Of a stretch of DNA of 28,057 nucleotides, positions 1 to 23,900 are shown piece after piece. Both the position numbers and the translations under genes were made by a program. The DNA is taken from IMG/VR virus record IMGVR_UViG_3300020446_000058, positions 1 through 28,057 of that record, one strand, 5' to 3'. Positions within the stretch are counted from its first letter, which is position 1. Every line of letters starts with the position of its first letter. This DNA is from a virus. The notes beneath the pieces are model-generated. The model was not told the origin of the DNA. It worked only from the letters and a program-made list of their open reading frames with translations, and searched no databases.

Positions 1-2630
1 TTCTTGCTAGGTGCTTTAAGGTCAGATCCAGGATTTTGGCGTTCGTAACTTTTTCTGCCTTTTTCATTAAGTCCTCCTGCCTTATTTTTTCCCTCTTTTC
101 GTTGCCATGCTGCTGATGCTTCTGTGACATTTAATTCTTGCCTCCAATTGGAGTAATCTTCTTTTTTAACACAATTATTATATCTCTTTCCGAACATCAT
201 CTTTGTGCCCTTTTTTTCGTAACCAGGCCAGCACTTCTTTGCCTCGGTGATCTGTTTTGTCCCTGCCCACTGACCATTTTCGTTGGTAACTGGTTTGAGA
301 TCATTAGGTCCTATGATGTCTGTAACATCTGCTATCAATTGACCGTCAGAGTTATTTATGTCAACACTCTCTTTACGACTATTTCCCCAGTTTGCAGCAC
401 CGACTTTACGACACTTTACTAATGCACCTGACGCATATGCTGATGGCCATACGGAATACCTTGACTTGACCTTATGGTAACAAGCATCTTTTGATCCACT
501 ACCCTTTCCTTTTTTGTCTTTAACTTCACTAATAACTAATTCATCTCCAACCTCTACATTATTATCAGAGAACCAACCACGATTTACCTCAATAGCATAA
601 ATGATTTGTCCATCAGAGGTGACAGGTGTTTCACTATTAGGTTCTAATTCTTTGATACTATCAATAATTCCATCCTCTGTGACAAATGCAACATCAAGAG
701 GTATTGATGTATTTCTCATAAAGAATGAATGTTGACCAACACTATCAAAAATAAAGAGCATACCTCTATCATTCTCAAGACTTTCACGGAACATTAATCC
801 TCTATTAAAATCTCTCATATTATTTGGTATTTCAACCTGAAGAGGTAAATCAATATATTCTGCCTCTTCATATTTGTTTCTACCTGATGGTGATGGTTGT
901 GTACTATCAAAATGAGGATTATTTTTAGCAGCTTGAGATTGTGATGCCTTTTGCTTTTCTAATTTTTTTGCTTTCTTGTCAAGAAAATCTTTCATAACAC
1001 CAGATGGTTTGCCAGATCCTTTTGCCATACCTGTTGTAGAAAATCCCTCACCAATACCTGCCTTTCTTAATCTTTTTGCCTGACTTGTATGCATTTTAAC
1101 AGCAGCGTCTAATTCTTTAGCGATTTTTTTCACATTTTTTGGAACATGTTTTTCTTCATTAAATTCAAAATTATCTTTCCAATTTGAATATTCTTCTCTG
1201 TTAACAACTAACGCTTTATAGGTTGGACTTTTCTTCTCTACTGGCATACCTGCTCTCCTTTTAGATTTGTTTCCTGCACCTCTGTCTGTTTCTGTAGGAA
1301 TATTTTTAATTGCTGATTGTGCTGTGGGTGGGTGTACAGACATTAATTTTGCCTTTCTTGAAACTCCTTTTCCACCATAAGATTCTTTCATTTTTTTCTT
1401 CCTTGGACTGTCAGTTGATACGTATGTTGGTTTTGCAGCACCAGATTTTGCTTGTTGACCAGGATCTGCTTTCTTTTTACGACGAGCAGCGGATAATCTT
1501 TCTGCTTTTGACATGCTGGCACGTTTAGCAGATGAAACACATTTAGGTGTGCCTTCACCAGGTTCATCACTTGCACAAGTTCCACCTGTGACAACATTTA
1601 CCCAACCACCTTTTCCGTCTTTGGATTTAGAACCTTTGAACCATTTGTGTAAGGAACCTTCATTCATGTTTTTTGGTTTTTTACCCTTCTTCTTCATATT
1701 TATAGCGATGGCAGCTTGCTGTGCAGGGTTTGCTGCTTCATTCATCTTTTTAGTTTTCTTTTTCATCGAGTTGATATACTTTCGATAGACAGCTGCTTCA
1801 GAAGTTTTTCCCATCTCCCTTGCTCTTTGTTCCATAGCAACAGCTGCTTGAATTTTATGAGCATGCGATCTTGAAGAATTACGTATTTTTGTGACAGATG
1901 CCTTTGCAGAAGCCACATCCTTAAAACCAAGTCCGTGAATAGTGCCTTTAGGATTTTCATCAGTATATAAATCAGAATGTTTTTTAGAATTTGCAGGTTG
2001 TCCTTTCTTACGAGGAATGCGAGGATTAGATTCCTCCTTTACCTCTTTACTATCAAGATAATCAGCAGCGGTATCCAAATAATCAGATGCCTTTGTAATT
2101 TTTGATTGTACCCATGCTTTAAAATTATCTTTTTTGTGAGTGTGTTTTTTTATTGTTTTTGATGCTCTCTTCGCTGTTTTTAATTGGTTGCGAATCATTT
2201 CTGGTTCATGATCATCTTTATCTTCCTTCATACTTTTTTTACCATAAGTTTTACAAGGTGTTTGACCACAACCACAATTTTCATTAGAACTCATTTTATC
2301 AAGATAATCTGCCTGTGCTTTATGCATCTTGGTAGATTTACGAAGTTGTTTTACAATTTTTTTAATTCTCTTACCATCAAATCCTTCACTCATTCCTCCT
2401 CCATTTCCACCACCATTGCCACCACCATTGCTACCGTTACCACCGTTAGAATTGCTGTGACCATTTCCATTTCCTTTTCCGTTTGAATGTCCATTTCCAT
2501 TTCCATTCTTTTTATCATCTTCAGTTTCTTTACGAAGATAACCACCTAATCCCCTACGATATCCGACAGGAATCTTCTTACACTTTTTATCAGTGTAGCA
2601 ATAGTAGTAACCAATTTTACATTTCTTCAC
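1..2630 (-). CDS. Lysine-rich mosaic phage protein with DUF192 domain, partial (3' end beyond window)
   Basis: I translated this frame by hand: 876 sense codons run from GTG (2630) to the window edge with no stop. An in-frame TGA lies six codons upstream, so GTG is the first credible start; the next in-frame ATG (residue 80) would remove a conserved-looking N-terminus. Modules in order: Cys motif YYYCYTDKKC (residues 8-17); Asn/Gly linker (42-79); helical motif with KMHKAQADYL (87-113); CGCGQTPC (119-126); DENPKGTIHG module (224-290); DUF5872-like module with GGWVNVVTGG (325-418); second helical motif with KMHTSQAKRL (498-525); DUF192 domain (about 594-700); CYHKVKSRYSVW module (715-749); CWPGYEKKGTK motif (797-824); DUF6321-like RKEGKNKAGGLN motif (838 to edge). 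Several of these modules recur in marine myophage proteins as I remember them. It begins 5 bp after the gp16 stop, where gene 17 is expected. Function is unknown; a basic, virion-associated protein is an inference. Confidence 0.85.
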   Translation of the reverse strand, partial: MKKCKIGYYYCYTDKKCKKIPVGYRRGLGGYLRKETEDDKKNGNGNGHSNGKGNGNGHSNSNGGNGSNGGGNGGGNGGGMSEGFDGKRIKKIVKQLRKSTKMHKAQADYLDKMSSNENCGCGQTPCKTYGKKSMKEDKDDHEPEMIRNQLKTAKRASKTIKKHTHKKDNFKAWVQSKITKASDYLDTAADYLDSKEVKEESNPRIPRKKGQPANSKKHSDLYTDENPKGTIHGLGFKDVASAKASVTKIRNSSRSHAHKIQAAVAMEQRAREMGKTSEAAVYRKYINSMKKKTKKMNEAANPAQQAAIAINMKKKGKKPKNMNEGSLHKWFKGSKSKDGKGGWVNVVTGGTCASDEPGEGTPKCVSSAKRASMSKAERLSAARRKKKADPGQQAKSGAAKPTYVSTDSPRKKKMKESYGGKGVSRKAKLMSVHPPTAQSAIKNIPTETDRGAGNKSKRRAGMPVEKKSPTYKALVVNREEYSNWKDNFEFNEEKHVPKNVKKIAKELDAAVKMHTSQAKRLRKAGIGEGFSTTGMAKGSGKPSGVMKDFLDKKAKKLEKQKASQSQAAKNNPHFDSTQPSPSGRNKYEEAEYIDLPLQVEIPNNMRDFNRGLMFRESLENDRGMLFIFDSVGQHSFFMRNTSIPLDVAFVTEDGIIDSIKELEPNSETPVTSDGQIIYAIEVNRGWFSDNNVEVGDELVISEVKDKKGKGSGSKDACYHKVKSRYSVWPSAYASGALVKCRKVGAANWGNSRKESVDINNSDGQLIADVTDIIGPNDLKPVTNENGQWAGTKQITEAKKCWPGYEKKGTKMMFGKRYNNCVKKEDYSNWRQELNVTEASAAWQRKEGKNKAGGLNEKGRKSYERQNPGSDLKAPSK
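531..851 (-). other. DUF192 domain within the mosaic protein
   Basis: Residues 594-700 of the mosaic protein show the DUF192 (COG1430) pattern: RGLMFRESL, then GMLFIFD, then FFMRNTSIPLDVAFV, then GIIDSI, a Thr/Pro stretch, and IYAIEVNRGWF followed by VEVGDEL. The usual family form reads GLM...GMLF.F...FWMKNT.IPLD...I, with VLEVNAG and a GD near the end, so nearly every hallmark is kept. The family is mostly small stand-alone bacterial proteins, often exported, with no settled function. Here it is an internal domain flanked by basic linkers. Confidence 0.8.
2394..2507 (-). repeat. Asn/Gly-rich low-complexity linker
   Basis: Thirty-eight consecutive codons (residues 42-79 of the mosaic protein) encode almost only Asn and Gly with a few Ser, His and Lys, as NGNGNGHS-type and NGGG-type units. 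The DNA is an imperfect 6-9 bp repeat. It separates the Cys-rich N-terminal motif from the rest of the protein and should be a flexible, disordered tether. Confidence 0.85.
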
Positions 2631-2635
2631 AATTA

Positions 2636-3067
2636 TTAAGTAGCGTCAGAATTGTCCTTATTATTTAGAAAACCTTGTTTTATCAATTTTGATAACTCTG
2701 ATGTAGATCCTACAAATAGAGCATTATTTGTGACATTCTTATTACTTTTATTATCATCTTCATTTACTTCTTTAACTTTTTTTTGTAAGTCTAATAATTT
2801 ATCAGTTGTATCTGCTACACTCTTAATCAACTGACCAGCAACTTCATATGCTCTGGGACTAGCAGTTTCACCTGCAACTTCCATAATACCATTAATTGCC
2901 TCTTGTCCTTTTTCAATTAGAGAATATAAATTTCCTCTCGTATAATCATAATCTTTATCTACGTCTTCTCCATTTACACTCTTCAACTCGTTCTTTTCAC
3001 CTTTTGGTGTTGGAACGATTTCAGACTCTATATTTAAAGCCTCATCAATAGAATCAAAACTAGACAT
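2636..3067 (-). CDS. gp16: Terminase small subunit gp16
   Basis: This protein of about 143 residues aligns with T4 gp16 (164 aa). It has a YDYTRGNLYSLIEKGQEAI helix (T4 DYGVVRRNMHFQQQMLMDA), an ASPRAYEVAGQLI segment (T4 DSPRHMEVFATLM), a coiled-coil-like DKLLDLQKKVKEV, and a C-terminal NNALFVGSTSEL (T4 NATVFMGSPTEL). T4 gp16 forms a ring that recognises concatemeric DNA and stimulates the gp17 packaging motor. The start lies in an ATGATGTCTAG overlap with the gp15 stop. I prefer the second ATG because an AGAGAA Shine-Dalgarno-like sequence directly abuts the first. A start further upstream (3151) would add about 28 residues that overlap the end of gp15 in another frame and have no counterpart in T4. 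Confidence 0.9.
   Translation of the reverse strand: MSSFDSIDEALNIESEIVPTPKGEKNELKSVNGEDVDKDYDYTRGNLYSLIEKGQEAINGIMEVAGETASPRAYEVAGQLIKSVADTTDKLLDLQKKVKEVNEDDNKSNKNVTNNALFVGSTSELSKLIKQGFLNNKDNSDAT
2662..2668 (-). promoter_or_regulatory. Possible degenerate late promoter CTAAATA upstream of the mosaic gene
   Basis: The minus strand reads CTAAATA in the last codons of gp16, with its end 31 bases before the GTG start at 2630. It differs from TATAAATA in the first positions. Seven-base AT-rich matches are frequent here by chance, so this is a weak call based on placement similar to the other two promoters. Confidence 0.3.
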
Positions 3068-4106
3068 CATTTCTCTGGGTTGGACTATAAACTCTACCAT
3101 CAGTATAGAAAGCAGTTGTTTCATTGAATCCAAAATTATCATCAATATCAACTAATGAATCATCAGCAGCACTCAATACATTAATAAAGATATTTTCAAT
3201 ATGAGTTGCTTTTGATGTTCCATCAACACCACGATCAACAACTAATGTTAAAGCATCAGGTATTTCAGTAATTTTCATAATTTCATTATCTATAATAATT
3301 CGATTACCTACTGCAAAATTACTAGAGTCATTAACAGCAAATCTTGTTTTTGATTTTGTTAATGCTTCACGAAGAGTTGCGGTATTATCGGAATTATAAT
3401 CTTGTAACGCTTTTGGTGTAGCAGAATATCTAACTTCACGTTTTGCTGTTTGTTGATTTGTATCTGCATAGTAATCAACCTGAACTTTCTTAATTAAACC
3501 ATCTGTAGTATCGGCAACAGGTCCAAATAGATATGTTTTTGCAGTAAATGTTAATGTGTATATTAATGCTCTTCGAGTTAAGAAATCACCTTCATAATCA
3601 TCTTGAAATGAAATATTATCTAACACAACAGGTATATCTCTTTTCTCTCCAATTGAATCTACTAAATCAATGGTTAAATTAAAAGATGGTTGAAAAAATG
3701 GTAATATCTGTTCGACAATTTGTAGAGCATCATCATTTAATTTTACAAGAATATTAAGTTCAAATCCAATATTATATGGAACAGGCATGAATACTTTTCT
3801 TAAATTAGTTCCATCGGATGCCTTAAATGTTTGTGTAATTCCAGATTTTCTTGTTGGATCATATGAGATATTTGTCATCTCAAATGACATTCTAGGTAAA
3901 GTAATTTGAACAGCTCTGTTTAATTCTGGTTGTTGTTCTAATCTTGCCAAAAACTTTTGCATTGGACCATATGCCAATGGCACTCTTAACTCACCACCAG
4001 GTTGACTTGTCGAACTTTTATGTCGAATACGAATATCATTAAAAATCGTACCAAACGCTACAACAGTCTTTCTTAATATTTGATGATAAAAATAAGTGCC
4101 TAACAT
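3060..4106 (-). CDS. gp15: Tail sheath stabiliser and completion protein gp15
   Basis: Residues 1-225 align closely with T4 gp15 (272 aa): YFYHQILRKTVVAFGTIF, RVPLAYGPMQKFL, LPRMSFEM, then the near-identical QIVEQILPFFQPSFN, and FGPVADTTDGLIKKVQVD followed by YAD. T4 gp15 is a hexameric terminator at the head-proximal end of tail tube and sheath and docks to gp13/gp14. At 348 residues it is longer than T4 gp15. The extra C-terminal part (about 254-305) holds a small module, IIIDNEIMKI...VVDRGVDGT...H, that also occurs in the two largest proteins of this window. The last residues (NFGFNETTAF and on) form a short tail after that module. The start codon shares one base with the gp14 stop (TAATG), which suggests coupled translation. 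Confidence 0.95.
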   Translation of the reverse strand: MLGTYFYHQILRKTVVAFGTIFNDIRIRHKSSTSQPGGELRVPLAYGPMQKFLARLEQQPELNRAVQITLPRMSFEMTNISYDPTRKSGITQTFKASDGTNLRKVFMPVPYNIGFELNILVKLNDDALQIVEQILPFFQPSFNLTIDLVDSIGEKRDIPVVLDNISFQDDYEGDFLTRRALIYTLTFTAKTYLFGPVADTTDGLIKKVQVDYYADTNQQTAKREVRYSATPKALQDYNSDNTATLREALTKSKTRFAVNDSSNFAVGNRIIIDNEIMKITEIPDALTLVVDRGVDGTSKATHIENIFINVLSAADDSLVDIDDNFGFNETTAFYTDGRVYSPTQRNDV

Positions 4107-5521
4107 TAGTATTGTCCAAATGGGTTAGTTTCAGTAAAATCAATCATGGAATCTGCCTCTGATTCTAATTCGTCATTAGAATCATACTCATCATATATAT
4201 CTCGATTATCATATGATCCTAATGTGTAAGATGCAAATTCTCCAGATATTGTCGATCCAGTTCCAATAATTGTTTCACCAGGTATGAATCCAGATATAGT
4301 TGAACCAATACCAACATTTGCAACTTTCAGTATCTTTGTATCTACATCCCAAGACCTTACTCTTGCCTCTGTAAGCGATGTTTCACCTCTTATAATCTCA
4401 TTATAGTAGAAAGTACCTAATCCAACTGCTGCAGGTGCAGAGAAGGATACTGCTGGAACTTGAGTATATCCGATACCAGGATTTGTGACGCGAATTGAAG
4501 TAACCTGCTTATCTGCATTGATGACTGCTTCTGCAATTGATGTGGTACCTGAACCAGTCGGACCAGCAACTGTGATTGTAGGAACAGCAGAATATCCACC
4601 ACCTTGATTAGTAACTGTGTAACTGATGACACCCTTCTGTGTGGTTTCAATAGAGCATGTTGCGATTGCACCTGTTCCATTTCCACCAATAATTGTTATT
4701 GTAGGTGGTGATGTATAACCAGAACCAGCATTTGTTAGTACAATTCTATCAATAGATTGAACCCCTGCCCTTGTTGTCGTGATTGCTACCGCTGTGGCAT
4801 TTACACCAGTAACACCAGGTGCTGTAGATATTGCGACTGTTGGAGTTGTTGTATATCCACTACCATCATTTGTTAAGAACAATTCTCTTACGTATCCAGT
4901 AGGTTGTGAGAGAACTGCAGTGGCTGTAGCAGTTGTTCCAGCACTCACTAAATTTAATGTAGTAATAAATCCTTCATCTTCAACTTGAGTGTCAATGTCA
5001 TCAATGGAAGTATCGATAACTTCACCTTCATATTCAAATAATTCACACTTCAATTGATAAACATAATTTTTGCCTAATTGATAAAAAGGTTCTTCATGTT
5101 CTACAAATTTTATTTCAAATAATCTCTGTCCTAATGGAAAATATACAAGATCTCCTTCTCTTGGTCTTGTATCTACAATAATTTCATCATCAGGTAGTGC
5201 AGTTAAAAATGCTCCGATGAAATCTTCAAATCTTTCTCTTGATATAGTAAGAGTTAATTCATCTCTCAAACTCATACCAAATTTGGTCATAATATCTCCT
5301 TGACCACCATATCCCTCATATGTGTTTACATAAGCTTCAATACTAAAGTTATCATCAAACTTTGCTTGCTGTACTTCTTCAATTATTGTCTGTCTATTTA
5401 CAAATTTTCTTGGAATATAGGTAACTTCGACACCATAAATTCCTAACTGTTCATTAATTAAATCTTGAACGAGTCTTTGCTCACTTGGAGATCCTTGTAG
5501 AAAGAAGGGATTTAAAGCCAT
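4106..5521 (-). CDS. gp14: Neck protein gp14 with internal GxGY-repeat insertion
   Basis: The N-terminal 165 residues and the C-terminus align with T4 gp14 (256 aa): GVEVTYIPRKFV (T4 GVECYYVPREYV), IEAYVNTYEGYGG, KFGMSLRDELTLTI, EGDLVYFP, LFEIKFVEHEEPFYQLG, and near the end DFTETNPFG (T4 FESSPFDND). T4 gp14 sits with gp13 under the portal and joins the finished tail to the head. At 471 residues it is almost twice the T4 length. The excess is mostly an insertion at residues 185-372 with four copies of a GSGY/GGGY/GIGY beta repeat spaced 41-46 residues. The tail is acidic (DIYDEYDSNDELESEADS). The start is 6 bp after the gp13 stop, with AGGA and GAG in the gp13 end as possible ribosome-binding sequence. 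Confidence 0.93.
   Translation of the reverse strand: MALNPFFLQGSPSEQRLVQDLINEQLGIYGVEVTYIPRKFVNRQTIIEEVQQAKFDDNFSIEAYVNTYEGYGGQGDIMTKFGMSLRDELTLTISRERFEDFIGAFLTALPDDEIIVDTRPREGDLVYFPLGQRLFEIKFVEHEEPFYQLGKNYVYQLKCELFEYEGEVIDTSIDDIDTQVEDEGFITTLNLVSAGTTATATAVLSQPTGYVRELFLTNDGSGYTTTPTVAISTAPGVTGVNATAVAITTTRAGVQSIDRIVLTNAGSGYTSPPTITIIGGNGTGAIATCSIETTQKGVISYTVTNQGGGYSAVPTITVAGPTGSGTTSIAEAVINADKQVTSIRVTNPGIGYTQVPAVSFSAPAAVGLGTFYYNEIIRGETSLTEARVRSWDVDTKILKVANVGIGSTISGFIPGETIIGTGSTISGEFASYTLGSYDNRDIYDEYDSNDELESEADSMIDFTETNPFGQY
4406..4969 (-). repeat. Four GxGY beta repeats inserted in gp14
   Basis: Residues 185-372 of gp14 contain four units of the form (V/I)xxIxLTNxGSGYTxxPTVxI, with the GxGY tetrads at 220, 266, 307 and 349. 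Units are followed by Gly/Ala/Thr-rich strands such as NATAVAI and GAIATCSIE. T4 gp14 has nothing comparable at this point. The repeat matches units seen in the giant protein, the DUF4815 protein and gp8 of this window. Confidence 0.85.
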
Positions 5522-9024: not shown

Positions 9025-9228
9025 TTAGGATCTAGGAATATTTATAATCTGTTTTAATAGTAACTTAATTTCATCAATATCTGCCTTGATTTTATCCAAC
9101 TCGTCTCTTTGAGTTAGTTTCGCTGTTTTCATTTGCATATACTGATTATACCCAGATGAGTCGGTATTTAAGATGGCACCAGAATTTTCATCTCTGTACA
9201 GATTTTTATGTCCGTCAACAGGTATCAT
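9025..9228 (-). CDS. Small coiled-coil protein coupled to the DUF4815 gene
   Basis: The 67-residue product begins MIPVDGHKNLYRDENSGAIL, then NTDSSGYNQYMQMK, and its last 30 residues form a coiled coil (QRDELDKIKADIDEIKLLLK). Its start overlaps the stop of the 2377-residue gene by four bases (ATGA), so the two are coupled. Its 3' end carries a perfect late-promoter sequence for the next gene. It looks like a short conserved protein of marine T4-like phages found at this place, but I do not know a function. Confidence 0.75.
   Translation of the reverse strand: MIPVDGHKNLYRDENSGAILNTDSSGYNQYMQMKTAKLTQRDELDKIKADIDEIKLLLKQIINIPRS
9039..9046 (-). promoter_or_regulatory. T4-type late promoter TATAAATA upstream of the 114-residue gene
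   Basis: The minus strand reads TATAAATA, the exact T4 late-promoter -10 element used with the gp55 sigma factor. It ends 26 bases before the ATG at 9012 and lies in the last codons of the 67-residue gene. It would drive the 114-76-610 residue cassette. I expect about four such 8-mers per strand by chance in a window this AT-rich, so the support is its placement. Confidence 0.6.
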
Positions 9229-12200
9229 GCTAATGCTATCACTCTTAAATCTTTAAATCTTGTTGATTCTGCTTCATTAGTTCCACTTGAAACAATTTTT
9301 ATTTTGAATCCTGTAAAACTTTCAAGATCATCAACACTGAATTGATATTCTTTGAATTCATCATTTTTACTTGATGTTACAAATGCATCTGATCTACCGT
9401 TATTTAATGAAACATCTACGACAGTATCACCAAATCCATCATCATCTGTATCTGTTAGATTATTAAAACCAGGAAATAGTTCGTAAGTTTGTTCAACTTC
9501 ACTTGAATCTGGTCTGAATAATTGATAGAGAACTCTAAAATCAGCAGATGAATGTCTGAATGCAGATACTAAAACTTTAAGAGATGTCGCTGGTTGTTTC
9601 AAATTGATTTGATTTGAAATGTAAATTGATGCATGAGGATCACCTAAAATTTCATTTACTCTTGAATCATTTGAATAATCAGAAACAGGTTTATTAAATT
9701 TGTTTCTTTGTAAGATTAAAGTACCATTTTGTAAATCTAACATTGGTGATAGATTTGAATCGTCTGAAGTAAATTGTACTGATAAAGTAGTTGATCTATT
9801 TTTTGGTAAGTTACTTAAATGTTCTAACTCATTTACCTCTGAACAAATTATTCTTGTTGAAGATAACTTATTAAGTTGATTAAGTTCAACATTCTCATAA
9901 CCCTGATCAATAAATGATATTTCAGACCCACCAGCACTTGTTCCAGATACAGATCTTAATTGTGCAGATAATCCAGTGGTTTCACCAGGTGTAAGCACAT
10001 TAAATCTAGGTAGTACTGAATTATATTGGAAGTTTTTGGATACAAATATATCTGTGCCACCAGTGGTTTTTTGGTTTGTGAAACTTAATTGAGAATCACC
10101 AGTCTGTCTTACACCTCTACCAGCTGATAGATAGAATTTATCAATATCTTGAAAAACATTTAAAGAAGCAGACATATCATGAGTTGTATTAATTCCAATA
10201 AGTGATACACCATTTAACTCATACTTGTAAACTAAATCATCCACTTCATGTGGTTGAGCAATAGTGTTATCAATACCCCTTGTACCAATACCTAAAGTTC
10301 CATCTGCACCTACACTACTATAGTAAATAATTTCTTGACCAATTTTTGCATATCCAGCACTCGCTGTTGATATGCCTTCATAGTTTGCAAAATATGATGT
10401 ATTTGATGCTCCAACATTTATTGTAGATGAAGATACTGTCATCCTATCAACTAATTTAACTGGAACAGTGTCTGGATGAATATCAGAAATTTGAACTTTG
10501 TTACTATCTGCCTTCATACCATGACTATAATGCTGAACTTCAAAAACATTACCTTCATTCAATGGACTTGTAACACTTTGTCCCAAGATATTAATTCCTG
10601 CAATAGCAGATCTATTTCCATTATCTGCAAAATAATAAAGAGTTGCACCTGTGGTGAATGTCTCACCAACAACATCAGTAAGATATAAAGTATTTTTTGA
10701 TGAATTAACAGCAGAGACAGTTAGTTGTGCACCACTTCCTTTTGACATATTAGCAGTTGTAATTCCTAAAACATCACCCTTAACATAACCAGTTCCAATT
10801 CCACTGACTGCTATATTACTAACAACATTATTTGTTATGGTGACAGTTGCTGTAGCAAGTTCACCATCACCTGTAATATTATATAAAGGAACACCACTGA
10901 AAGAACCATTTGAATATCCAACACCAACATTTGTTATTGAAAGTGATTGTATGGATGATCCCACTTTTTCAATAACTCCAGTTGGTCCTGCTGTCGATCC
11001 CTCACTTACTTTTCTACCAACTTCTAATGCTGCAAAATTTGTTCCATCAATAATCACTCTTAATTTTCGAGGTAAAGTAGTTATTGCATTTGGTAATAAT
11101 CTTGGTGTTTGTGCGTTTCTGTTTCCAAGTTTTGGATTATAAAGATATAAAGTACCAAGATTAGATAAGAAATTACACTTATTTAATTTAATCTTCATAT
11201 CTTCAAATTGATTTGCAGTCCAAATAGATCCGTTTTGTGATCTGAATAAACTACCACCCAAGTACTGATTTGTAATAATTACACTTTCAGTGTTTGGTAA
11301 ACTTTGGGTATCAACAGTTGCTTCTCCCATTCTTGCAATCCATGCTTCATAATTATTTGTAGTGGGTGCAAGGAGAACAACAGCAAAAGTTTCATTTGGT
11401 TGTAAATAAATTGGAGATGAAAATGTAACTGTGGTTGGTACAGATGCATCAGGAGAAACACTAATTTGAGATGGTTCAAGAGAAACATGAGCATAATCAA
11501 CAACCATTTTGTTTGTTGGAGTACCTAATTCAGTTGTCCTAACTTGAATGTGTAGTTTTTCATTCTCATCTTTTTTCGCCAAGAATATTTGAAGTGATGA
11601 TAGATAACAACCTGTTTCATCAACAGTAAATGTTTGTGCTAGAGGATCATCATCATCAACTCTTGTAACTCTAGTAATATTTGTAACGTTTGTAATATTT
11701 TGAGTTACATTAGTTACATTTATTATAACAGGTACAGGGGGTGGTGGTGGAACTCTGATTGTAACCGTGGTTTGTACAAATTCATCTACAATACCACTGG
11801 TTCTATAAGTGGTTTCAGCACTACTAATTGCTGGTTCACCTGCTAATGCTATTGCATTGTTTGGACTTGATGTTAATTTAAATGATCTAGTTCCATTTCT
11901 AAATCTTAATTCTGGAGCAGGTATTGTAAGAGGATTTCTAAAGAAGAATGATCCATACACATCACCGAAGGTATCTGTAATAATTCTTATATTAGATACA
12001 GTTGCCACAGCACCACTTCTCTGACCTAATAATGTCATACCAGATGCTATTCTTCCAAAAAATCTTCCTTGTGCCTCTTCCGATAAAGCAGCGATGTCAA
12101 CATTTAACACTGTTGTAGATGCTGAATATCCTGTTGGTAAAGTAATTGATGTATTATATGGATTATTTTTAAATGTAGTTGTTGGATTATCAATATCACC

Positions 12201-15200
12201 AGTTTTATGATTTGGTTGACATATTCTAAAAATAATTTCATTATTATCAGATATTACAGTTTCATTTGATTGGAAAGATCCAGATACCATTGTAACTTCA
12301 ATTAGTTTTGGTACTATATCAATTCCACTTGTTCCGTCAAAGAAAGGATAATATCTTGTAAATGGTTTTAATCCATTTGCAGTAAAGGCAACATTTCTTG
12401 AACGAATATGTTCATCAGGTTTACTTCCACTTCTTACCTCTGTAATAAATGTTCCCTGCGTATCACCAGTAACTGTTCTTTCACCACCTTGAATAGTTAC
12501 ATTTCGAGTCCAATTATCAGATGCTGGATTAAGAGTAATGTTTCCTTCAAATTTTACAATATTAAATGGGTTTACATTTTCAGTTCTTGATGCTAAAGGT
12601 TGATCCAAAAGAACTGTTTCATCATAATTGAGAGTAATCATATCACCAGTTTTTCTCAAATTAGTATCTAGTAATTCTAGATCTGATGATAGATCAATCT
12701 CATCAACGTTTAAAGTTGTTGAAACTGCAATTTCAGGTTTAATAGAATAAAAATCTAATGGTGATTCTAATTCTTGTTTTTCAGCGTTTACATCACATTT
12801 ACAATCAGGATTTGTTATATCTAAAAGATTATTATCTTTGAAATCATCTACAAAAAATCCAGTTTTAAATCTTGATAAACCATCAGCATCTTGTATTTGA
12901 AGAGTTTTTGTATCAAGTTCAAGTAAACTTAAAGATGTAATTGTTTCTAAATTTTCAATACGATCTTCTAATTTACCAATATCTCTCATAGTAAATCTCT
13001 TATTGTCAACCATGATTACTTTTGCATCATCAGGATCATAAAGATATGGAGGCAATTCAATGGTTGCAATGGTCATTGCAGCTTCAACATTTAAAGGTTC
13101 TTTAGGATCAACTGAAGATACACCTTTGACAACTGATAAGTTTTCTAAACTATCTAAAACAACCTTATCAATTCTAGGAAGATAGAAACTATAACCTAAA
13201 ATTGAACTTTCTTCTGGAGCAACCACGAGTGATGGATTAGTTCCCGCTACACCAAAATTTCTCATACTAAATGAAAATGGTGATGCAGTTGTAATACCAG
13301 AAACTGATGAAACTCTAGGTCTAAAATCAAGAGTGTCTGATGCTCTAACATTATTTTGTAATAATGGAACATCTTTCAAAAATCTTCTCTCATCGTAAGA
13401 TGCAACAGTGTATACGTCTCCATTATCACTATCAGGAACATTGTAACGATTATAAACGACTGTTATTTTACGAGTGGGTTTTGGTGATCCAGCACTACGA
13501 ATTATTCTAGAATAATCAAGATATTGCTCTCTATGTCCCTTATCTAAAGTAAAACGATCAGTTATATCTAAATGAATACCTAAAGTGATCGCTTGAATAT
13601 TTGTAGTAATATTTGATTCTTCAAATGTAACTGTTTCGCCAGATATAAATTTTGAATCTGTCAAGTAAACTATTTCAACTTGTGTCGCAGATGATCTTTC
13701 AGTTAATTGTGCGATTGCACGACTTTGTGATCCTATAATTTTTTCACCTAAAATTGAAGCTGTATCAAGATTAAGACCAGAAATAAATGATAATTTATCA
13801 AAACTAGGTGCAGATGTATTTAATGATTCAAAAACACCAACAATATTAACAACATCAGGTATATTTAATGATATTTCTTTATCTTCAACTCTCAAACCAT
13901 AAAAATTGTTTTGTGTTAATGCACCTGGTGCTGTAGATGCCACGGAAACTGTTTTATCAATCGTGATTTTTTCACTTCTTATTATATCTTTTTGTTTACT
14001 TATAATATCTTTTTTCTTTACTGTTGCATTTACAACAACATTATTTTGACCTGATCTTAATCCTTTAAAATCTACAGTTGTTCCGTCTGCGGACAAAGTA
14101 AATTGATCAGATGTAAGATCTTCAATTTGACCATCAGCATAATGAATTGAATATCTATCTTCATCAAAATTTTCAAAGAAAGAACTTGTAATTCCAGTAT
14201 CACTTACATTTAAAGAAAATGTTCCAGCTGCACCAGTATTTTTACTTGTTAATTGTTTTGATACTACAAGAGTTGATTCCGATAAATTAATATCAGAAAC
14301 ATTTTCTGCGGGAAGTGGTGCAAATAATCCAGAATTTTCATCGTTTGTGATTGATGGTCTTCCGATTGAAAAAGTTACTGTCTCTTGTCCAGTAGCAGGT
14401 ATTGCTCCATTACAAACTCCTGACACAGATTCAACCGCATCAAGATCCATAGTCAAACCATCGTTTGGTATATGTCTAACTTTATTAAATACTTCATCAG
14501 AATTAGGTCGTTGATAACGAATGATAGTGTCACTCTTAATACCCAAGAAGTTGCGACCAGCACAACTAGCGATACCAGATGCGTTAATCACTAATTGATC
14601 TGCAACAGTAAAACCTTTCGGTATAACTCTACTTAATACAGTGTCAGCAGCAAAGTCTACTGTAGTTGTCGCTAGTATACCACCTGATCCACCAGTGTTT
14701 TGATAAACTGATTTAATATCTTGAGTTCCAAAAACTTTCACCTCTGCAACTGATCTTGGAATCTCTATGGATCCATTTATTCTTAACGCTTCTCCTTTCA
14801 TGAAAGTTCCAGAGGTTTGAACTAACATGTGTGTGGCACTGTCACCACCAGCACTTACAGCGTAACCAAAAGCACCACTACTAATACCTTCAACATAGGA
14901 AGTTGCAGGTAACTCTGCATCAGAAAGCACTAAATTAGTTGTTATTTGAGTATAAGTTTGAACATCAAACAAATATAAATCCCATGTTGATGCATCATCT
15001 TTATAAGCTGCATCTGTTAAACTAAATGAATATACTCTTGCTTCTCCGATCACAGTGCCTGGAGCACTAGTAATTGTGCCAGAACCCATTCTTGAATTTG
15101 ATAGTTGAATTGTATGGTTATTATTAATACCTATGAATGGTGTTCCCTGAACATTATTGACTTTGATTTTATTACCTAATGACAACGGAACTAAAGATGA

Positions 15201-16358
15201 CTCAACCTTTTCCTTATCTCTTGGTTTTTCTACGTCAAGGATTGTTGTTGCTGCTTTATCAATGTCGAATCCTCTTACATATGCTTTACCTGAAGATACT
15301 TTAACTGCCATTAAATCTTCAGTTGGAGTATTTCCTTGATCTGTTGTTTGAGTTGATCTAAATACACCTTCATTTGATAGACCATCATTTAATGAATTAG
15401 CAACTTGTACTCCAAATCCTTCGACTGTGTAATTTCCTGATTCTTCAAATGTTCTTTTTGCAAAATAATCGCGAATTAAATTATATTGTGGTTTATTATT
15501 TAATAATTTTACCTCTCCCTCATCTAATCTTAAAAGTTCTACAAAAGTTTTATCACTAGTATCTGATATAGATTTTTTAACTAAAACAAGTCCTATTTTT
15601 AATCTGTCTGAACCTGGTGCTGCAAAGTTTGTGAATCCTCTTGCATTATCATATAATGAATCATCGTCTTTTGCACTTATTAATTCTTCTTGAATACTTA
15701 AACCAACACGATATGATGGAGTGTTTGTATATGGATCTAAAACAATTTTGCTTGCAGGAACATTAACAAATGTGCCTCTTATAAAATAAACACCATTAGA
15801 TATAGCAGCTGCCGACCCAACAGCACTCGCACCCTCTGATATTAAAGTTACAACACTATCACCTTCATTAAAAACTGTATTGCCATAAGCAAATACTGTA
15901 TCGGTTAAAAGTGCCTCTCCATCAATTAAACCAGATCCATCATTATTATTTCCAGATTTAATATATTTTACGAATATCGTAGTGTCATCAATTTCTGTGG
16001 AGTCTGATGGTTGTAAAAATTTGTCTATTACTATAGTTACTCCAGAATTTTGACCAGTTAATCTTAATCCAACTAGTTTATCAATGTATAAAGATATTGG
16101 TACACCTAGATGTTCGGAATTTAATTTGACAGAATAATATTGCTGATCAAAAGTAATACCGCCAGGTATCACCATAGATCCCTCTTTAAACATATGAGAT
16201 CCAAAAGATTCAACCTGATTTTGTAAGATTGATTGGAGAGTTGTTAATTCTCTCGCTTGTACAGGAAATCCTGGTTTAAATAAGACTTTATAAAAATTAT
16301 CATTCTTATCAAAGTCATCGTAATATGGACTTATATTTAAATTAGTTTTCTGTGGCAT
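9225..16358 (-). CDS. Large virion structural protein with DUF4815-type N-terminus
   Basis: The 2377-residue product opens with NLNISPYYDDFDKNDNFYKV, LFKPGFPVQARELTTLQSIL and GGITFDQQYYSVKL, the signature of DUF4815 phage proteins. The N-terminal half is conserved up to about residue 1150 (VKVSSGKAYVRGFDIDK, GHREQYLDYSRI, VASYDERRFLKDVP, MRDIGKLEDRIENLE). Then come a fibre-like region, a PPPPP run with an NVT/NIT repeat (about 1536-1563), and a domain beginning DPLAQTFTVDETGCYLSSLQ (about 1568). Two GxGY repeats lie near 1805-1865 and a TRGIDNT-type module near 2025. A DTDDDGFGD calcium-loop-like motif is at about 2301, and the end reads FTGFKIKIVSS...RFKDLRVIALA. It sits three bases after gp8 (TAAAAAATG), in the place of T4 genes 9-12, so a baseplate or appendage role is likely. 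Confidence 0.88.
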   Translation of the reverse strand: MPQKTNLNISPYYDDFDKNDNFYKVLFKPGFPVQARELTTLQSILQNQVESFGSHMFKEGSMVIPGGITFDQQYYSVKLNSEHLGVPISLYIDKLVGLRLTGQNSGVTIVIDKFLQPSDSTEIDDTTIFVKYIKSGNNNDGSGLIDGEALLTDTVFAYGNTVFNEGDSVVTLISEGASAVGSAAAISNGVYFIRGTFVNVPASKIVLDPYTNTPSYRVGLSIQEELISAKDDDSLYDNARGFTNFAAPGSDRLKIGLVLVKKSISDTSDKTFVELLRLDEGEVKLLNNKPQYNLIRDYFAKRTFEESGNYTVEGFGVQVANSLNDGLSNEGVFRSTQTTDQGNTPTEDLMAVKVSSGKAYVRGFDIDKAATTILDVEKPRDKEKVESSLVPLSLGNKIKVNNVQGTPFIGINNNHTIQLSNSRMGSGTITSAPGTVIGEARVYSFSLTDAAYKDDASTWDLYLFDVQTYTQITTNLVLSDAELPATSYVEGISSGAFGYAVSAGGDSATHMLVQTSGTFMKGEALRINGSIEIPRSVAEVKVFGTQDIKSVYQNTGGSGGILATTTVDFAADTVLSRVIPKGFTVADQLVINASGIASCAGRNFLGIKSDTIIRYQRPNSDEVFNKVRHIPNDGLTMDLDAVESVSGVCNGAIPATGQETVTFSIGRPSITNDENSGLFAPLPAENVSDINLSESTLVVSKQLTSKNTGAAGTFSLNVSDTGITSSFFENFDEDRYSIHYADGQIEDLTSDQFTLSADGTTVDFKGLRSGQNNVVVNATVKKKDIISKQKDIIRSEKITIDKTVSVASTAPGALTQNNFYGLRVEDKEISLNIPDVVNIVGVFESLNTSAPSFDKLSFISGLNLDTASILGEKIIGSQSRAIAQLTERSSATQVEIVYLTDSKFISGETVTFEESNITTNIQAITLGIHLDITDRFTLDKGHREQYLDYSRIIRSAGSPKPTRKITVVYNRYNVPDSDNGDVYTVASYDERRFLKDVPLLQNNVRASDTLDFRPRVSSVSGITTASPFSFSMRNFGVAGTNPSLVVAPEESSILGYSFYLPRIDKVVLDSLENLSVVKGVSSVDPKEPLNVEAAMTIATIELPPYLYDPDDAKVIMVDNKRFTMRDIGKLEDRIENLETITSLSLLELDTKTLQIQDADGLSRFKTGFFVDDFKDNNLLDITNPDCKCDVNAEKQELESPLDFYSIKPEIAVSTTLNVDEIDLSSDLELLDTNLRKTGDMITLNYDETVLLDQPLASRTENVNPFNIVKFEGNITLNPASDNWTRNVTIQGGERTVTGDTQGTFITEVRSGSKPDEHIRSRNVAFTANGLKPFTRYYPFFDGTSGIDIVPKLIEVTMVSGSFQSNETVISDNNEIIFRICQPNHKTGDIDNPTTTFKNNPYNTSITLPTGYSASTTVLNVDIAALSEEAQGRFFGRIASGMTLLGQRSGAVATVSNIRIITDTFGDVYGSFFFRNPLTIPAPELRFRNGTRSFKLTSSPNNAIALAGEPAISSAETTYRTSGIVDEFVQTTVTIRVPPPPPVPVIINVTNVTQNITNVTNITRVTRVDDDDPLAQTFTVDETGCYLSSLQIFLAKKDENEKLHIQVRTTELGTPTNKMVVDYAHVSLEPSQISVSPDASVPTTVTFSSPIYLQPNETFAVVLLAPTTNNYEAWIARMGEATVDTQSLPNTESVIITNQYLGGSLFRSQNGSIWTANQFEDMKIKLNKCNFLSNLGTLYLYNPKLGNRNAQTPRLLPNAITTLPRKLRVIIDGTNFAALEVGRKVSEGSTAGPTGVIEKVGSSIQSLSITNVGVGYSNGSFSGVPLYNITGDGELATATVTITNNVVSNIAVSGIGTGYVKGDVLGITTANMSKGSGAQLTVSAVNSSKNTLYLTDVVGETFTTGATLYYFADNGNRSAIAGINILGQSVTSPLNEGNVFEVQHYSHGMKADSNKVQISDIHPDTVPVKLVDRMTVSSSTINVGASNTSYFANYEGISTASAGYAKIGQEIIYYSSVGADGTLGIGTRGIDNTIAQPHEVDDLVYKYELNGVSLIGINTTHDMSASLNVFQDIDKFYLSAGRGVRQTGDSQLSFTNQKTTGGTDIFVSKNFQYNSVLPRFNVLTPGETTGLSAQLRSVSGTSAGGSEISFIDQGYENVELNQLNKLSSTRIICSEVNELEHLSNLPKNRSTTLSVQFTSDDSNLSPMLDLQNGTLILQRNKFNKPVSDYSNDSRVNEILGDPHASIYISNQINLKQPATSLKVLVSAFRHSSADFRVLYQLFRPDSSEVEQTYELFPGFNNLTDTDDDGFGDTVVDVSLNNGRSDAFVTSSKNDEFKEYQFSVDDLESFTGFKIKIVSSGTNEAESTRFKDLRVIALA
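11641..11752 (-). repeat. Polyproline run plus NVT/NIT repeat hinge
   Basis: This part of the DUF4815 protein encodes five consecutive prolines, VPVII, then a run of N-x-T units spaced three or four residues (NVTNVTQNITNVTNI), RVTRV and four aspartates. It directly precedes the conserved-looking DPLAQTF domain. It marks a structural hinge or a thin fibrous neck between two halves of the protein. Confidence 0.8.
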
Positions 16359-17975: not shown

Positions 17976-20900
17976 CTACCCAAGATCCGCTTTTAACGCA
18001 CCACCATCATTGAATCCATAATTGCGTCTTTGGATGGTTGGGAATGTGGATATTCCAGAACCTGTTGACAATCCAACAGTAAGTCCAGTAACACCTATTG
18101 CAATAGGTGTTGATGATCTAATCACAGTGGATAATTTACCCCATGAGAATTTACCCATTTCAACTGAACCAAGAGATGAAATACCACTTACACTTGATCC
18201 AGCGTTTGAATGAATGTTTGTGATTATTTCAGCGTTAGTTCCCGATGAAGTTATATTTTGAATATGATAAATGTTATCAAAGAAGGATGTTCCTATTCCA
18301 ACAACATTCGCATCAAGACCACTAGTAGCAAGTGAGGTTACACCTGATCCTATCGTAGTATCATAGATATATATCGGATCACCTACAGAAAGATTTCCCC
18401 AATTAGATGCGGGTTTATTCAAGAAGAACTTCAATCCTAGTGTTGATACTCCTACAGTAGTTGTAGTAATACCAGTTACGATACCAGAGAATCCCTCAAT
18501 AGTGTCAATTGAAGAAACAACCTCATTAGAAAATCTAGGGAATGATGCGAGAACCACTGGAGGATTAGAAACTGAATATCCACCTCCAGCGTTAGTAATC
18601 GTTGTTGCGGTTATAACACCAGCACTTACGGAAACTGTAGCAGTAGCAGTTGTTCCTACTCCAACGGGAGGAGCGATTGATATTGTGGCAGATGATCCCA
18701 CATATCCACTTCCACCTTCATTAATCACAAGTTGAGATAATGTACCATTAGCATCGATAATCGCTGTTATACCAGCAGCAACTGGATCTACAGATGGAAT
18801 AATTAGACCAGATATTTGATCAACTATATTGATTGTTGACTCATTTTCTTCGTAATTGAAGAATTGTGCATTATCCACATATATTTCATCATCAGTTGCT
18901 AATACATCTTTTATTATTTTTGCTGATGGATAAACTAAACCTTCAATTGAGTCTCTTGATTTATAAACAACTTCACCGTTAATAACCTTATCGACCTTTT
19001 GTTTTGTCCAGTTAACTGGTTTAAAGTTATTCTCATCTATACCAAGTCCAGAATATACATTTGTCTGAAGTGTATCTGATGTTGTAATACCAGCGATTGT
19101 TCTTGTTTTTTGTGCTGTTGTAATTCCTATATTTGAAACTTGAAGTAAATCACCTTTTTTCACAGTTTCTTTTACTTCAACAGAACTACTATCTTCACCA
19201 GTTGTTCCACGATAGAAGAATATTGATATCTCATCATTAGGTGACGGTGCAGATGTAAATGTAAATGTTGTTCCACCACCCTCAAAGTTGTATGCCTCAC
19301 CAGGATTTTGAATCACACCATCTATGAATATTAGAAGTAGAGCATCAAGATCAATTAAAGCAGAGTCACCATCAGTTGGATCTTTTTCAAATGATACTAA
19401 TTCACCATTATATCTTAATGGGAATCTTGTTCTAATACCATTTTGTAAATCTTTAATTGAATCAATAAAATCAAATTCACCAAAATTCCATGCAGTAAAT
19501 TTATCAGAGAATGTATCAAGAACTGTAAATTCAACATCAGTCATTGATGTCACTCCTCTTGCAGTAACTAATCCTACAGGTTTAAACTTATCACCAATCT
19601 TAAATGAATGACCTTCTCTGGCAATACTAAATGATCTTGCAGTTGATAATGTAGTTCCTATACCTACTGTTAATTGAGATGCTCCTACATCAATTGTCAT
19701 AAGTTGACCAGAACCAGTATCTGTAGTTGCTCCAACACCTAATCTTGAGATACCTGTTATTGGTAAGTTATCATATGACGGTTGTGGAATAGTAACTATT
19801 GGATTTATGTAACCTGTTCCACCAGCACCAATTGTAAATGCTAAAGTTCCACCAAGTCCCACTGTTGCTGTTACACTCGCACCAGATCCAGATCCACCAC
19901 CAGGACCTACGTTAACTGTAAGAGTATTAATTGAAGTGGAACCTATTGATAAATTAGCATTGTGTGCTGGATCAGTGGTTCTTGGATAACCATGATCTGT
20001 TTTATAATTATCTCTTGAACAACTTAATACCAATGATTCTGTTGATATACCGATTGTGTTAGTTCCAGCAACTAATCCATGATTTGGTATGGTTAATAGT
20101 AAATCGCCTGTACGTGAGTCATATATTGCGTTAGTTGCGGTAAATGTAGCACCTGTATTTGCAGTTATAGAATTAACACCTGCTCTTACAAATCTATGAT
20201 TGTATATTTCATCCGTTACACCGATTGAAACAGAACCTCTATATCCAGAACCAAAATTCAAATCAGCATAAAATGGAGTAGCAGTTCCTTGACCAACATA
20301 TATGTGTTTGATAGTGCTAATACCTATGTCACATATAAATGTTTTCTCTGAAGTAATTCCTGTAATAGAAAATGGACGATCTTGTAGAGTTGTTGGGAAA
20401 GTTCCTGATTTTGAACCATGTTCGGTTCCAAAGGTGACAGTACCACCACTGACATACTTATAAGTATCTGTTGTGTTCGCAACACCAGCGTTAACTGTAA
20501 TTGTTTGACTTGTTGTTGCTATGATTGGTGTAGAAACTCCACCTGCTAGTGGATCTGTACCTGGTCTTGGATAATTATGCTCTGATCCGTAGTTATCTTT
20601 ACTACACTGGAATACTAATGAACTATCAGCAATTTTTATTGGATACCCGATTGGTAAATCGTGTTGTCCAATTGTCATTTGAAGAACACCAGTAAACTGA
20701 TCATAAGTTGCATCAGTCACACTGAATGATCCTGAATATGTAAATCCTAAACCAACTAATTTTACTTGTTCGTTTGTTTTTCTAAATTTATGTGCTTTGA
20801 CGGTGGTTACTTCTAATTGACCTGTAGTATTATTGAAATTAGCAGTAGATATTCCTATAGAAACTCCTGTGGTAGGAAGTATTTTAATATCTGAAATAGA

Positions 20901-23900
20901 CTTTGCTGCACCGATTACAGGATGTACAATCGCACCTACTAATGGTGCAACACCTAATCCACCAGTAAATCCTAATGAAACTATCTTACCACCTCTAGGG
21001 AGTTGATTTTGATTAACATCAATAGGATCAATTATTGTTGCATTATTGTCAGATGTTATTCCAGTGAATACAATATCAGATTCTGTTGTGCCAACTGCAA
21101 CAAATGAATAGTTATTACCAGTATTATTAAATGTAGTTGGTTTTTGGAAAATACCATTTATTAATAGTAAGGAACTACCAACTGTGAGTGAAGTGGATCC
21201 GATACCAACACCTTCTTTAGTAATCGCAAATGTTTGTCCTATACCAGTAAATTCATCAGATATATCATCAAAAATCGCATTTGTAGTATAATTATTTCTT
21301 AAGTAAACTCTTCCGTTAAAGTCTGATCTTGCAAAAGGTAAATTTAGTTGATTTAACTCTGTTGTGCTTGATCCAAGAGGTGCATTTGTAAAATGAACCT
21401 TACCATCTTTGATATTATAAGAACCCACAAATCTCCTTACAACAGCACTGTCTGCATGTGCTGTAGCTGATGTTCCAACAAATCCTCTCTCAACTTCAAG
21501 TAAGTTTGCAGAACCTGTACCACTTATCGGACCTAAAGCAGTTGTACCAATACCGACTGATACAACTTTCATAAATTCATCATCAATTTTGATAACATCA
21601 TTTGTTGTAATTGTTGCAATACCCGCTACTTGAATCGTGGTTCTGCTAGTGGATATGTGAGCACCATTGCTTGTTAAAGTAGTGTTTATTGGAGTAAATG
21701 ATAGAGGAGATTGAATAATTCCATCAATTGACATTAATGCTTTTTCATTCTTTAGATCCATCTCTAATTCATGTGCATTTCCAGATCCTAAACTTAAGAA
21801 TGTAACTCCAATACCTGCATTAGCATTTGCAGCACTCGTTGCTAATTTAAATTCATCTCTAGTAATTTTAATTGCAAATACTTCTTCTGGTAAATCGGTT
21901 CCAGACTGATGTTGCATCGCTGTACTGCCAATACCAGTAAATGTAGATTTAGGAGTATAAATTAATTTTTCACCTGTTCTAAAGAAATGATTTGGTATGT
22001 TGAATATGCCAGTTGCAGGATTAAGTGTCAATGTATCTGCAGGGTTGAATACTTTTTCAAAAATTCTAGTTCCATTATGTCTTAAATCAAAACTCTTTCT
22101 ATTAATACGACTACCATTGATTCCATTATATTGAGTTAATGATAATGAATCAGACGCTTGACCAAATAATAGATCAGGAGCAATATTAAATGAATCAGAT
22201 TCTGTGTAGATTAATTCATCATATTGTTGTATTTCTATATTTGAACCATTAAAATCTGGTGATGGGTTAAATTGTATAAATGATTTTCCACCAGTTGATG
22301 ATGTAACAAAAGTTCCAATACCTGATGTTGTTCCAATCGATATGAATGGATATTGTAGTAAGTGATTATTTTCACCGTCAAACATAAACAAAGTTTGATG
22401 GATTGCACTAGTGTTACCTAATGATACTCTTATCATACTCTTAACACCAGTAATTATTGATGTATCAATTCCCACACCATGACCATATGAAAGACCTGAA
22501 TTAGAATTGGTTATATTTAAGAATTTAGATTCATATTTTAAACTTCTTTCTGTTCCTGGTGTCTGACCAGAAGTATTGAAATGATAAGTTCCAATACCTA
22601 TCGCTGTTGTGCCAAATCCTACAATTCTTGATCTAACTTCAACTTGATTTGCTGATGTGTTTTCATAATCTAAACTTAAAACACCAGATTCAAGTACAGA
22701 TGTAAATGTTCCAATAAAGTTTGAAGAGAAAGCACTTGTAATGCCACTATCTGCATAATATTGTGTGACATAAGAATTTGTATCATCATGAGTAACATAC
22801 AACTCTACAAGACTTTTTTCTCCAGTAGTTGTGTTCTTAACTTCCGAAGTTACAAAATATGATTCAATGTTATTACTTGAATTAGCAATTATCTCTGATG
22901 TAGATCCAACACCAACTAATCTATTTGAACTTACTAGATTTACAAATCCAACAGATCTTGTAGAAATTCCTACGATGTTGCTGATAATTGAATTCTTAAC
23001 TACTTTAATATCAAAATCATCTGTAAAAATATCAGATGGTCTAAATCTAATCGTGTTCTCAACTCCTTTAGATGAAACTAATTCTTCAGATCCGCTGAAT
23101 AAACTACCCTTTTCAAGAGTAAAAGTATTGTTAGTATCTCTATAAACAACTAATTCTGTTAATTGTGTCTCACCACTATTTGGATTTTTAAACTGAATCA
23201 CGAATCTTGAAAAATCTTCTGGAACTGCAAGTTCTGTAAATCCTTGAGTTGATACTTCTGAATTTGAAAATAGAGGACTAATATCATCTATTTTTAAAGT
23301 TCTATTTGTTTTATTGTTTATAAAGTCTGCTAATTTTGTATTTTGGAATTTAAGGAATCTTGACTTATTTGTAATACTATCAAAATCAATTACATTATCA
23401 AAATTATGAATAGTATCAACTCTTCTTTCATCAATTAAATCACGGACAACAACACTTATGTTTTCATTTGTAGTTTTACCAACACCTATTGATGTGGTAA
23501 TACCAGTATCTGCAAAATTCTTTAATCCACTTGTATGTACTAAACGATTAACTGGATTTATAAAATCGTCAAATCCAATTGAACTTTTTATACTATAAGA
23601 TAAGTTTTGATAGTAATCATTATCAGGTAGAACTTGATAATCTTCGCTTAACTTACCAATGTTATTATTCCAACCTTTATTTTTGTCGAGTGAATAATTA
23701 ACTTCAAATCTACCAGTGTTTCTAACTAATGTATTGATAGTAGCAATAGTGCCACTCAAAACTCCCTTTATCTTGTCATTAACTAATAATCTGTATATTC
23801 CATAAACTTTTAAATTCTCACCATCACTTTCAGCAACGGTTAAACCCTGTGAGGTATAAACACCATTGATAAAGACAACTACCTCTTCACCAGGTATAAA

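Follow-up and report, generated by a model that had tools for sequence, protein, structure and literature searches.

A modular gene between the terminase genes of marine T4-like phages as a possible internal-head polyprotein with exchangeable cargo

The DNA analysed here (the window) is an entire IMG/VR record of 28,057 bp, at the left end of which a modular protein is encoded next to a run of T4-like structural genes. A preliminary description of an uninterrupted, left-open minus-strand frame of at least 876 codons, with a GTG start 5 bp from gp16, was borne out: a single open frame of 876 codons occupies 3..2630, 5 bp separate its GTG from the gp16 stop and no stop is met up to the left window edge. 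The 3' end of the frame is absent because the record ends at that edge. The genes at this end are as follows.

3..2630, minus strand: modular protein gene of the T4-GC 119 / phrog_727 type (876 codons; the contig stops short of its 3' end)
2636..3070, minus strand: gp16, small terminase (ATG at 3070; Pfam and PHROGs)
3060..4106, minus strand: gp15, tail sheath stabiliser (Pfam and PHROGs)
4106..5521, minus strand: gp14, neck / head closure protein (Pfam and PHROGs)

More T4-like tail and neck genes lie upstream of these in the window. The long C-terminal part of gp14 consists of repeated GxGYTxxPTV units that match tail-fibre and baseplate PHROG families, so that it is an extended neck protein; gp15 has a C-terminal extension (approximately aa 235–310) that matches tail-fibre families, and in the tail/baseplate region gp8 is flanked by very large frames at 9225–16358 (2377 aa) and 17976–28040 (at least 3354 aa).

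By profile and homology searches, the modular gene is the T4-GC 119 / phrog_727 / DUF6321 gene of marine T4-like phages, an already known family. The phrog_727 profile matched most of the protein (PHROGs, E 2e-97), and DUF6321 scored 32.7 bits against a Pfam cut-off of 28.5 with only 29 of its 72 profile positions inside the window. The 2010 clustering in which the gene was named T4-GC 119 gave it no function (PMC3037559). Relatives were found by tblastn in 460 phage records, nearly all of them marine T4-like cyanophages, and a homologue search gave 171 matching stretches in IMG/VR contigs. S-SM2, S-SCSM1, S-B43 and dozens of IMG/VR contigs share the gene order gp15–gp16–homologue–gp17–gp18; P-SSM4 is an exception, with a homologue that is far from gp16/gp17 and adjoins a cytidylyltransferase cluster. 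Searches with Pfam and PHROGs gave no match to terminase ATPase or nuclease domains in the window protein and no such terminase match in the record. The idea that the gene stands in place of the large terminase gene had to be abandoned: among 50 complete relatives in which both the gene and gp17 were seen, gp17 starts at most 8 bp past the homologue stop in 46 (two of which overlap gp17 by 4 bp). Gene 17 is therefore not replaced and is expected just past the window edge; gp16 lies directly upstream in the window, while gp17, the next gene in relatives, falls outside the contig.

The protein is a string of small modules joined by linkers, as first described and as supported by Pfam and module mapping, and was divided as follows.

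2529..2627, minus strand: CYY Cys module (KKCKIGYYYCYTDKKCKKIP), aa 2-34 (module mapping; folded island, pLDDT ~80)
2394..2504, minus strand: Asn/Gly linker, aa 43-79 (sequence; pLDDT < 50)
2286..2375, minus strand: helical motif copy 1, aa 86-115 (module mapping and model)
2049..2219, minus strand: HEL helical module, aa 138-194 (module mapping and model)
1740..2030, minus strand: SDLY helical module, aa 201-297 (module mapping; aa 239-297 pLDDT ~95)
1404..1658, minus strand: LHKW module, aa 325-409, the most conserved (module mapping)
1161..1379, minus strand: VHPP module, aa 418-490 (module mapping)
1053..1142, minus strand: helical motif copy 2, aa 497-526 (module mapping and model)
534..839, minus strand: DUF192 domain, aa 598-699 (Pfam E 9e-27; PDB 3pjy and 3m7a by sequence and fold)
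369..491, minus strand: CYHK Cys module (KDACYHKVKSRYSVWPSAYASGALVKCRK), aa 714-754 (module mapping)
159..239, minus strand: CWPG Cys module, aa 798-824 (module mapping)
3..116, minus strand: DUF6321 module, aa 839-876, truncated at the contig edge (Pfam match aa 847-876)
120..2393, minus strand: 11 linker positions with a candidate prohead-protease site (hydrophobic-x-E; motif scan)

The duplicated helical motif, the Asn/Gly linker, the three Cys-containing modules, DUF192 and DUF6321 of the preliminary list are thus all present, and DUF192 (COG1430) is secure at 93 bits against a Pfam cut-off of 27, with a fold match to 3pjy (E 4e-10). The DUF5872-like module did not stand, as it was a weak partial match to the CYHK Cys module only, below the cut-off (14.5 bits against 27.5, E 0.053). 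The AlphaFold models consist of folded islands (CYY, SDLY aa 239-297 at pLDDT ~95, and DUF192) with disordered linkers between them, and nearly all the candidate protease sites are in linkers of low pLDDT or border a module. Fold searches gave meaningful scores only for the DUF192 structures (3pjy, 3m7a), and a PDB search with the DUF6321 module gave no match. The protein is basic (pI 9.8), as are 11 of the 12 predicted fragments (pI 9.2–10.3, compared with 8.9–9.5 for the T4 internal proteins), the DUF192 fragment having a pI of 4.8.

Twelve recurring modules were named and mapped on all homologues (approximately 87 relatives), among which module presence, order and ends differ. The first module is SDLY in S-SM2 and CYY or LHKW in most homologues, the last may be DUF6321, SDLY or CWPG, and a DUF3008 module forms part of some relatives. 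This massive shuffling agrees with the earlier suggestion that the gene is a composite which arose as modules recombined. An assembly artefact was also considered; the same modules are fused in one frame in dozens of independent marine contigs and in isolates, and the frame is therefore not an artefact. DUF6321, CYHK, SDLY and DUF3008 are found elsewhere as separate small genes: Pelagibacter phage Mosig has one for SDLY, a Roseobacter phage and many marine contigs have one for CYHK, and DUF3008 stands alone in S-SCSM1, where it is labelled a virion protein. The podovirus P-SCSP1u, for which a cryo-EM structure has been published, has a stand-alone 84-aa DUF6321 gene between its major capsid and tail-tube genes (L097:6959-7213). 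In marine MAG contigs (L103–L119) whose assignments span many phyla, and which are probably viral contigs that were binned together with hosts, CYHK is also encoded by separate genes of 47–85 aa or within fusions; some of the leaders in these contigs end EFEVLAE or EFEQLAE directly before the module.

Exchange was followed in contigs with 93–100% identical gp17, in which homologues of 374 to 659 aa have matching ends and a differing middle, and cassette swaps start right after I-x-E. Among 38 pairs that carry different cassettes, the sequences agree closely through GVWKGTxIxE, and one residue further on identity drops to 3%. The pattern used as anchor held the Glu constant and demanded a hydrophobic amino acid two positions earlier, and left the end-point of identity free.

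Eleven of the 15 [LIVMF]xE motifs in the window protein lie within linkers or on the border of a module, approximately one per junction, and the candidate sites follow aa 82, 136, 199, 298, 324, 416, 492, 528, 702, 796 and 837. As enrichment of [LIVMF]xE over whole proteins is weak (window z 2.1; gp22 z 3.4–3.7), junction-specific tests were used; the strict [LI]xE motif gave no strong protein-wide enrichment (mean z 0.8). [LIVMF]xE was present in 249 of 266 distinct linkers compared with 156 ± 7 after shuffling, and since these shuffles do not preserve sequence relatedness the clustered count given below is the fairer figure. The junction test held the Glu and the beginning of the module after it constant, left all else free, and scored the residue two before the Glu (P3). 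P3 was hydrophobic in 196 of 205 cases over five module starts (LHKW 58/59, CYHK 58/59, SDLY 38/38, AAWT2 23/23 and AAWT 19/26) and, with the upstream 10-mers clustered at 60% identity, in 55 of 65, compared with 3–32% at other offsets. P2 varies freely, and the codons at the junction differ synonymously, so that it is the protein and not the DNA that is conserved. P3 is often Met or Val, as against the Leu/Ile of T4, and some junctions have a residue outside LIVMF (HAE, RSE, DFEE). T4 gp21 cuts after L/I-x-E (PMC9026906), and the gp23 cleavage position, when aligned, reads LTE/A in T4 and LTE, LAE and LTE in three cyanophages. Judged by its residues, the junction motif is this known gp21 specificity, relaxed to admit Met and Val.

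The suggestion of a virion-packaged factor is supported by homologues in two virion proteomes. S-SCSM1_29 is labelled 'virion protein' in a record in which several expected structural genes are not; 45 phage proteins of S-SCSM1 were detected by mass spectrometry (PMC9602691), against approximately 48 such labels counted by eye in the record. S-CREM2 ORF137 was detected in virions by four unique peptides at 4.1% coverage (PMC10665884); its gene is between gp16 and gp17 and it ends in DUF6321 (E 3.5e-10). By virion mass spectrometry a protein inside the head looks no different from a tail protein or a contaminant; the gene location and virion association of the family are well supported, and packaging inside the head is probable. 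S-SZBM1_190, a 'virion structural protein' detected by mass spectrometry and encoded between gp16 and gp17, was dropped as it is not a homologue. Near the NMNAT gene of S-SCSM1, S-SCSM1_89 (L090:36357-37328) and S-SCSM1_92 (L090:40061-41623) are labelled virion proteins and are basic linker-rich chains with stretches in common with the family (MYKAADHMKE, FSNWRNDL); by these stretches they suggest a wider class of such proteins.

T4 IPII and IPIII start with the capsid-targeting peptide MKTYQEFIAE/A. Four relatives (L012, L055, L071 and L075) start MKSLNxF[IL]xE/G, which resembles it, and the neighbouring proteins S-SM2_108 and S-SCSM1_30 start MKTLKQFLKE/T and MKTFKQFMSE/S. The window protein (VKKCKIGYYYC) and most of its relatives start without such a peptide. 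Similar starts are found on the S-SCSM1 NMNAT, S-SCSM1_91 (L090:38819-40048; labelled a virion protein), with MKSFLQFLKE/A, and on the P-SSM4 cytidyltransferase, P-SSM4_155 (L084:4370-5521), with MKKFSAFLKE/A, and may explain the repeated detection of NMNAT/cytidylyltransferases in virions. Our literature search found no description of a cyanophage capsid-targeting sequence or internal head protein.

The best reading, which we hold to be about evenly poised, is that of an internal-head polyprotein with exchangeable cargo that is cut by the prohead protease. We propose that the precursor would be a chain of small, mostly basic folded modules on flexible linkers, built into the prohead core, and that a gp21-type prohead protease would cut it at hydrophobic-x-Glu sites within the linkers. 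The peptides set free, most of them basic, would remain with the packaged DNA together with the DUF192 domain and be ejected into the host, like the T4 internal proteins. Phages would exchange modules at the same linker sites that are used for cutting, which would allow the cargo to change fast with constant ends and neighbours. In its fullest form, with an interchangeable effector polyprotein, protease sites that double as exchange points and an injected set particular to each phage, the proposal is tentative and falls a little short of even. Cleavage at the junction Glu by the prohead protease is what we infer from the motif, and the products would then be ejected and take effect in the host. 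It is speculation, by analogy with T4 IPI, which counters host defences, that the cargo might do likewise.

One unlikely alternative, the best of those considered, is an uncut virion protein, a long flexible basic chain in the head or neck that condenses DNA or aids packaging, with the motif a matter of linker style. The position between the terminase genes, the pI of 9.8 and the detection of homologues in virions would fit, but mere linker style has no need of a P3 that stays hydrophobic while P2 and the upstream residues vary, and, since other phages encode the modules as small genes of their own, joining them is not needed. Another possibility, and a distinctly improbable one, is that the junction motifs are by-products of recombination (fossil MxE starts or short DNA homologies) without proteolysis. 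P3 in linkers is most often Met, the swap points coincide with the motif and the modules exist as separate genes; however, L, I or V predominates at P3 of the CYHK, AAWT and AAWT2 junctions, and the synonymous codon differences indicate conservation of protein rather than DNA. A tail- or fibre-associated adhesion protein is very improbable: the family is hypervariable, and tail-fibre or beta-rich proteins are also encoded between gp16 and gp17 in S-SM2, S-SCSM1 and P-SSM2, but the protein is Lys-rich, its linkers are disordered and its modules are small and helical or Cys-containing, with no match to fibre or receptor-binding families (Pfam, PHROGs) and no fibre-like fold at a meaningful score.

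The family is known; as far as we could find, its reading as a polyprotein with exchangeable cassettes has not been described, and a literature search found no paper naming DUF6321. What is new is the module shuffling, the junction motif, the swaps right after the Glu and the targeting-like starts. Few marine viruses are as abundant as the T4-like cyanophages. If the internal-head polyprotein reading is true, it would name a whole class of injected cargo in these phages, give a sequence rule for finding more of it (targeting peptide plus hydrophobic-x-Glu), account for virion-packaged enzymes such as NMNAT and provide a route by which host-takeover or anti-defence factors are quickly swapped between phages.

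Closest to the window protein are S-SM2_109, S-SCSM1_29 and S-SM1_115, which have in common with it their genome position and the CYY, SDLY, LHKW, DUF192, CYHK, CWPG and DUF6321 modules. The cyanophage T4-GC 119 proteins are approximately 60–80% identical to it over aligned common modules but differ from it in which modules they hold, in the order of these and in overall length; two helical repeats and VHPP are present in the window copy, which in the part seen is without VRMP. The ejection proteins of phiKZ and SPN3US are internal to the head and processed by a gp21-like protease before ejection, as is proposed here, but no sequence relation to them was seen and we know of none that is a modular polyprotein. 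T4 gp22, gp67 and gp68 are core proteins that are multiply cut by gp21, and the likeness is that the window protein too would be a single precursor with many L/I-x-E sites; they belong to the prohead core/scaffold and their fragments mostly leave the head, whereas the window protein is basic with folded modules. The likeness to T4 IPI, IPII, IPIII and Alt lies in the predicted small basic virion products, gp21-like junctions and variable cargo and, in some relatives only, in a capsid-targeting-like N-terminal peptide. Sequence homology between the T4 internal proteins and the family was not found, and the two differ in plan: each T4 internal protein is a separate gene with one cleaved propeptide, whereas the family described here carries many modules in one frame.
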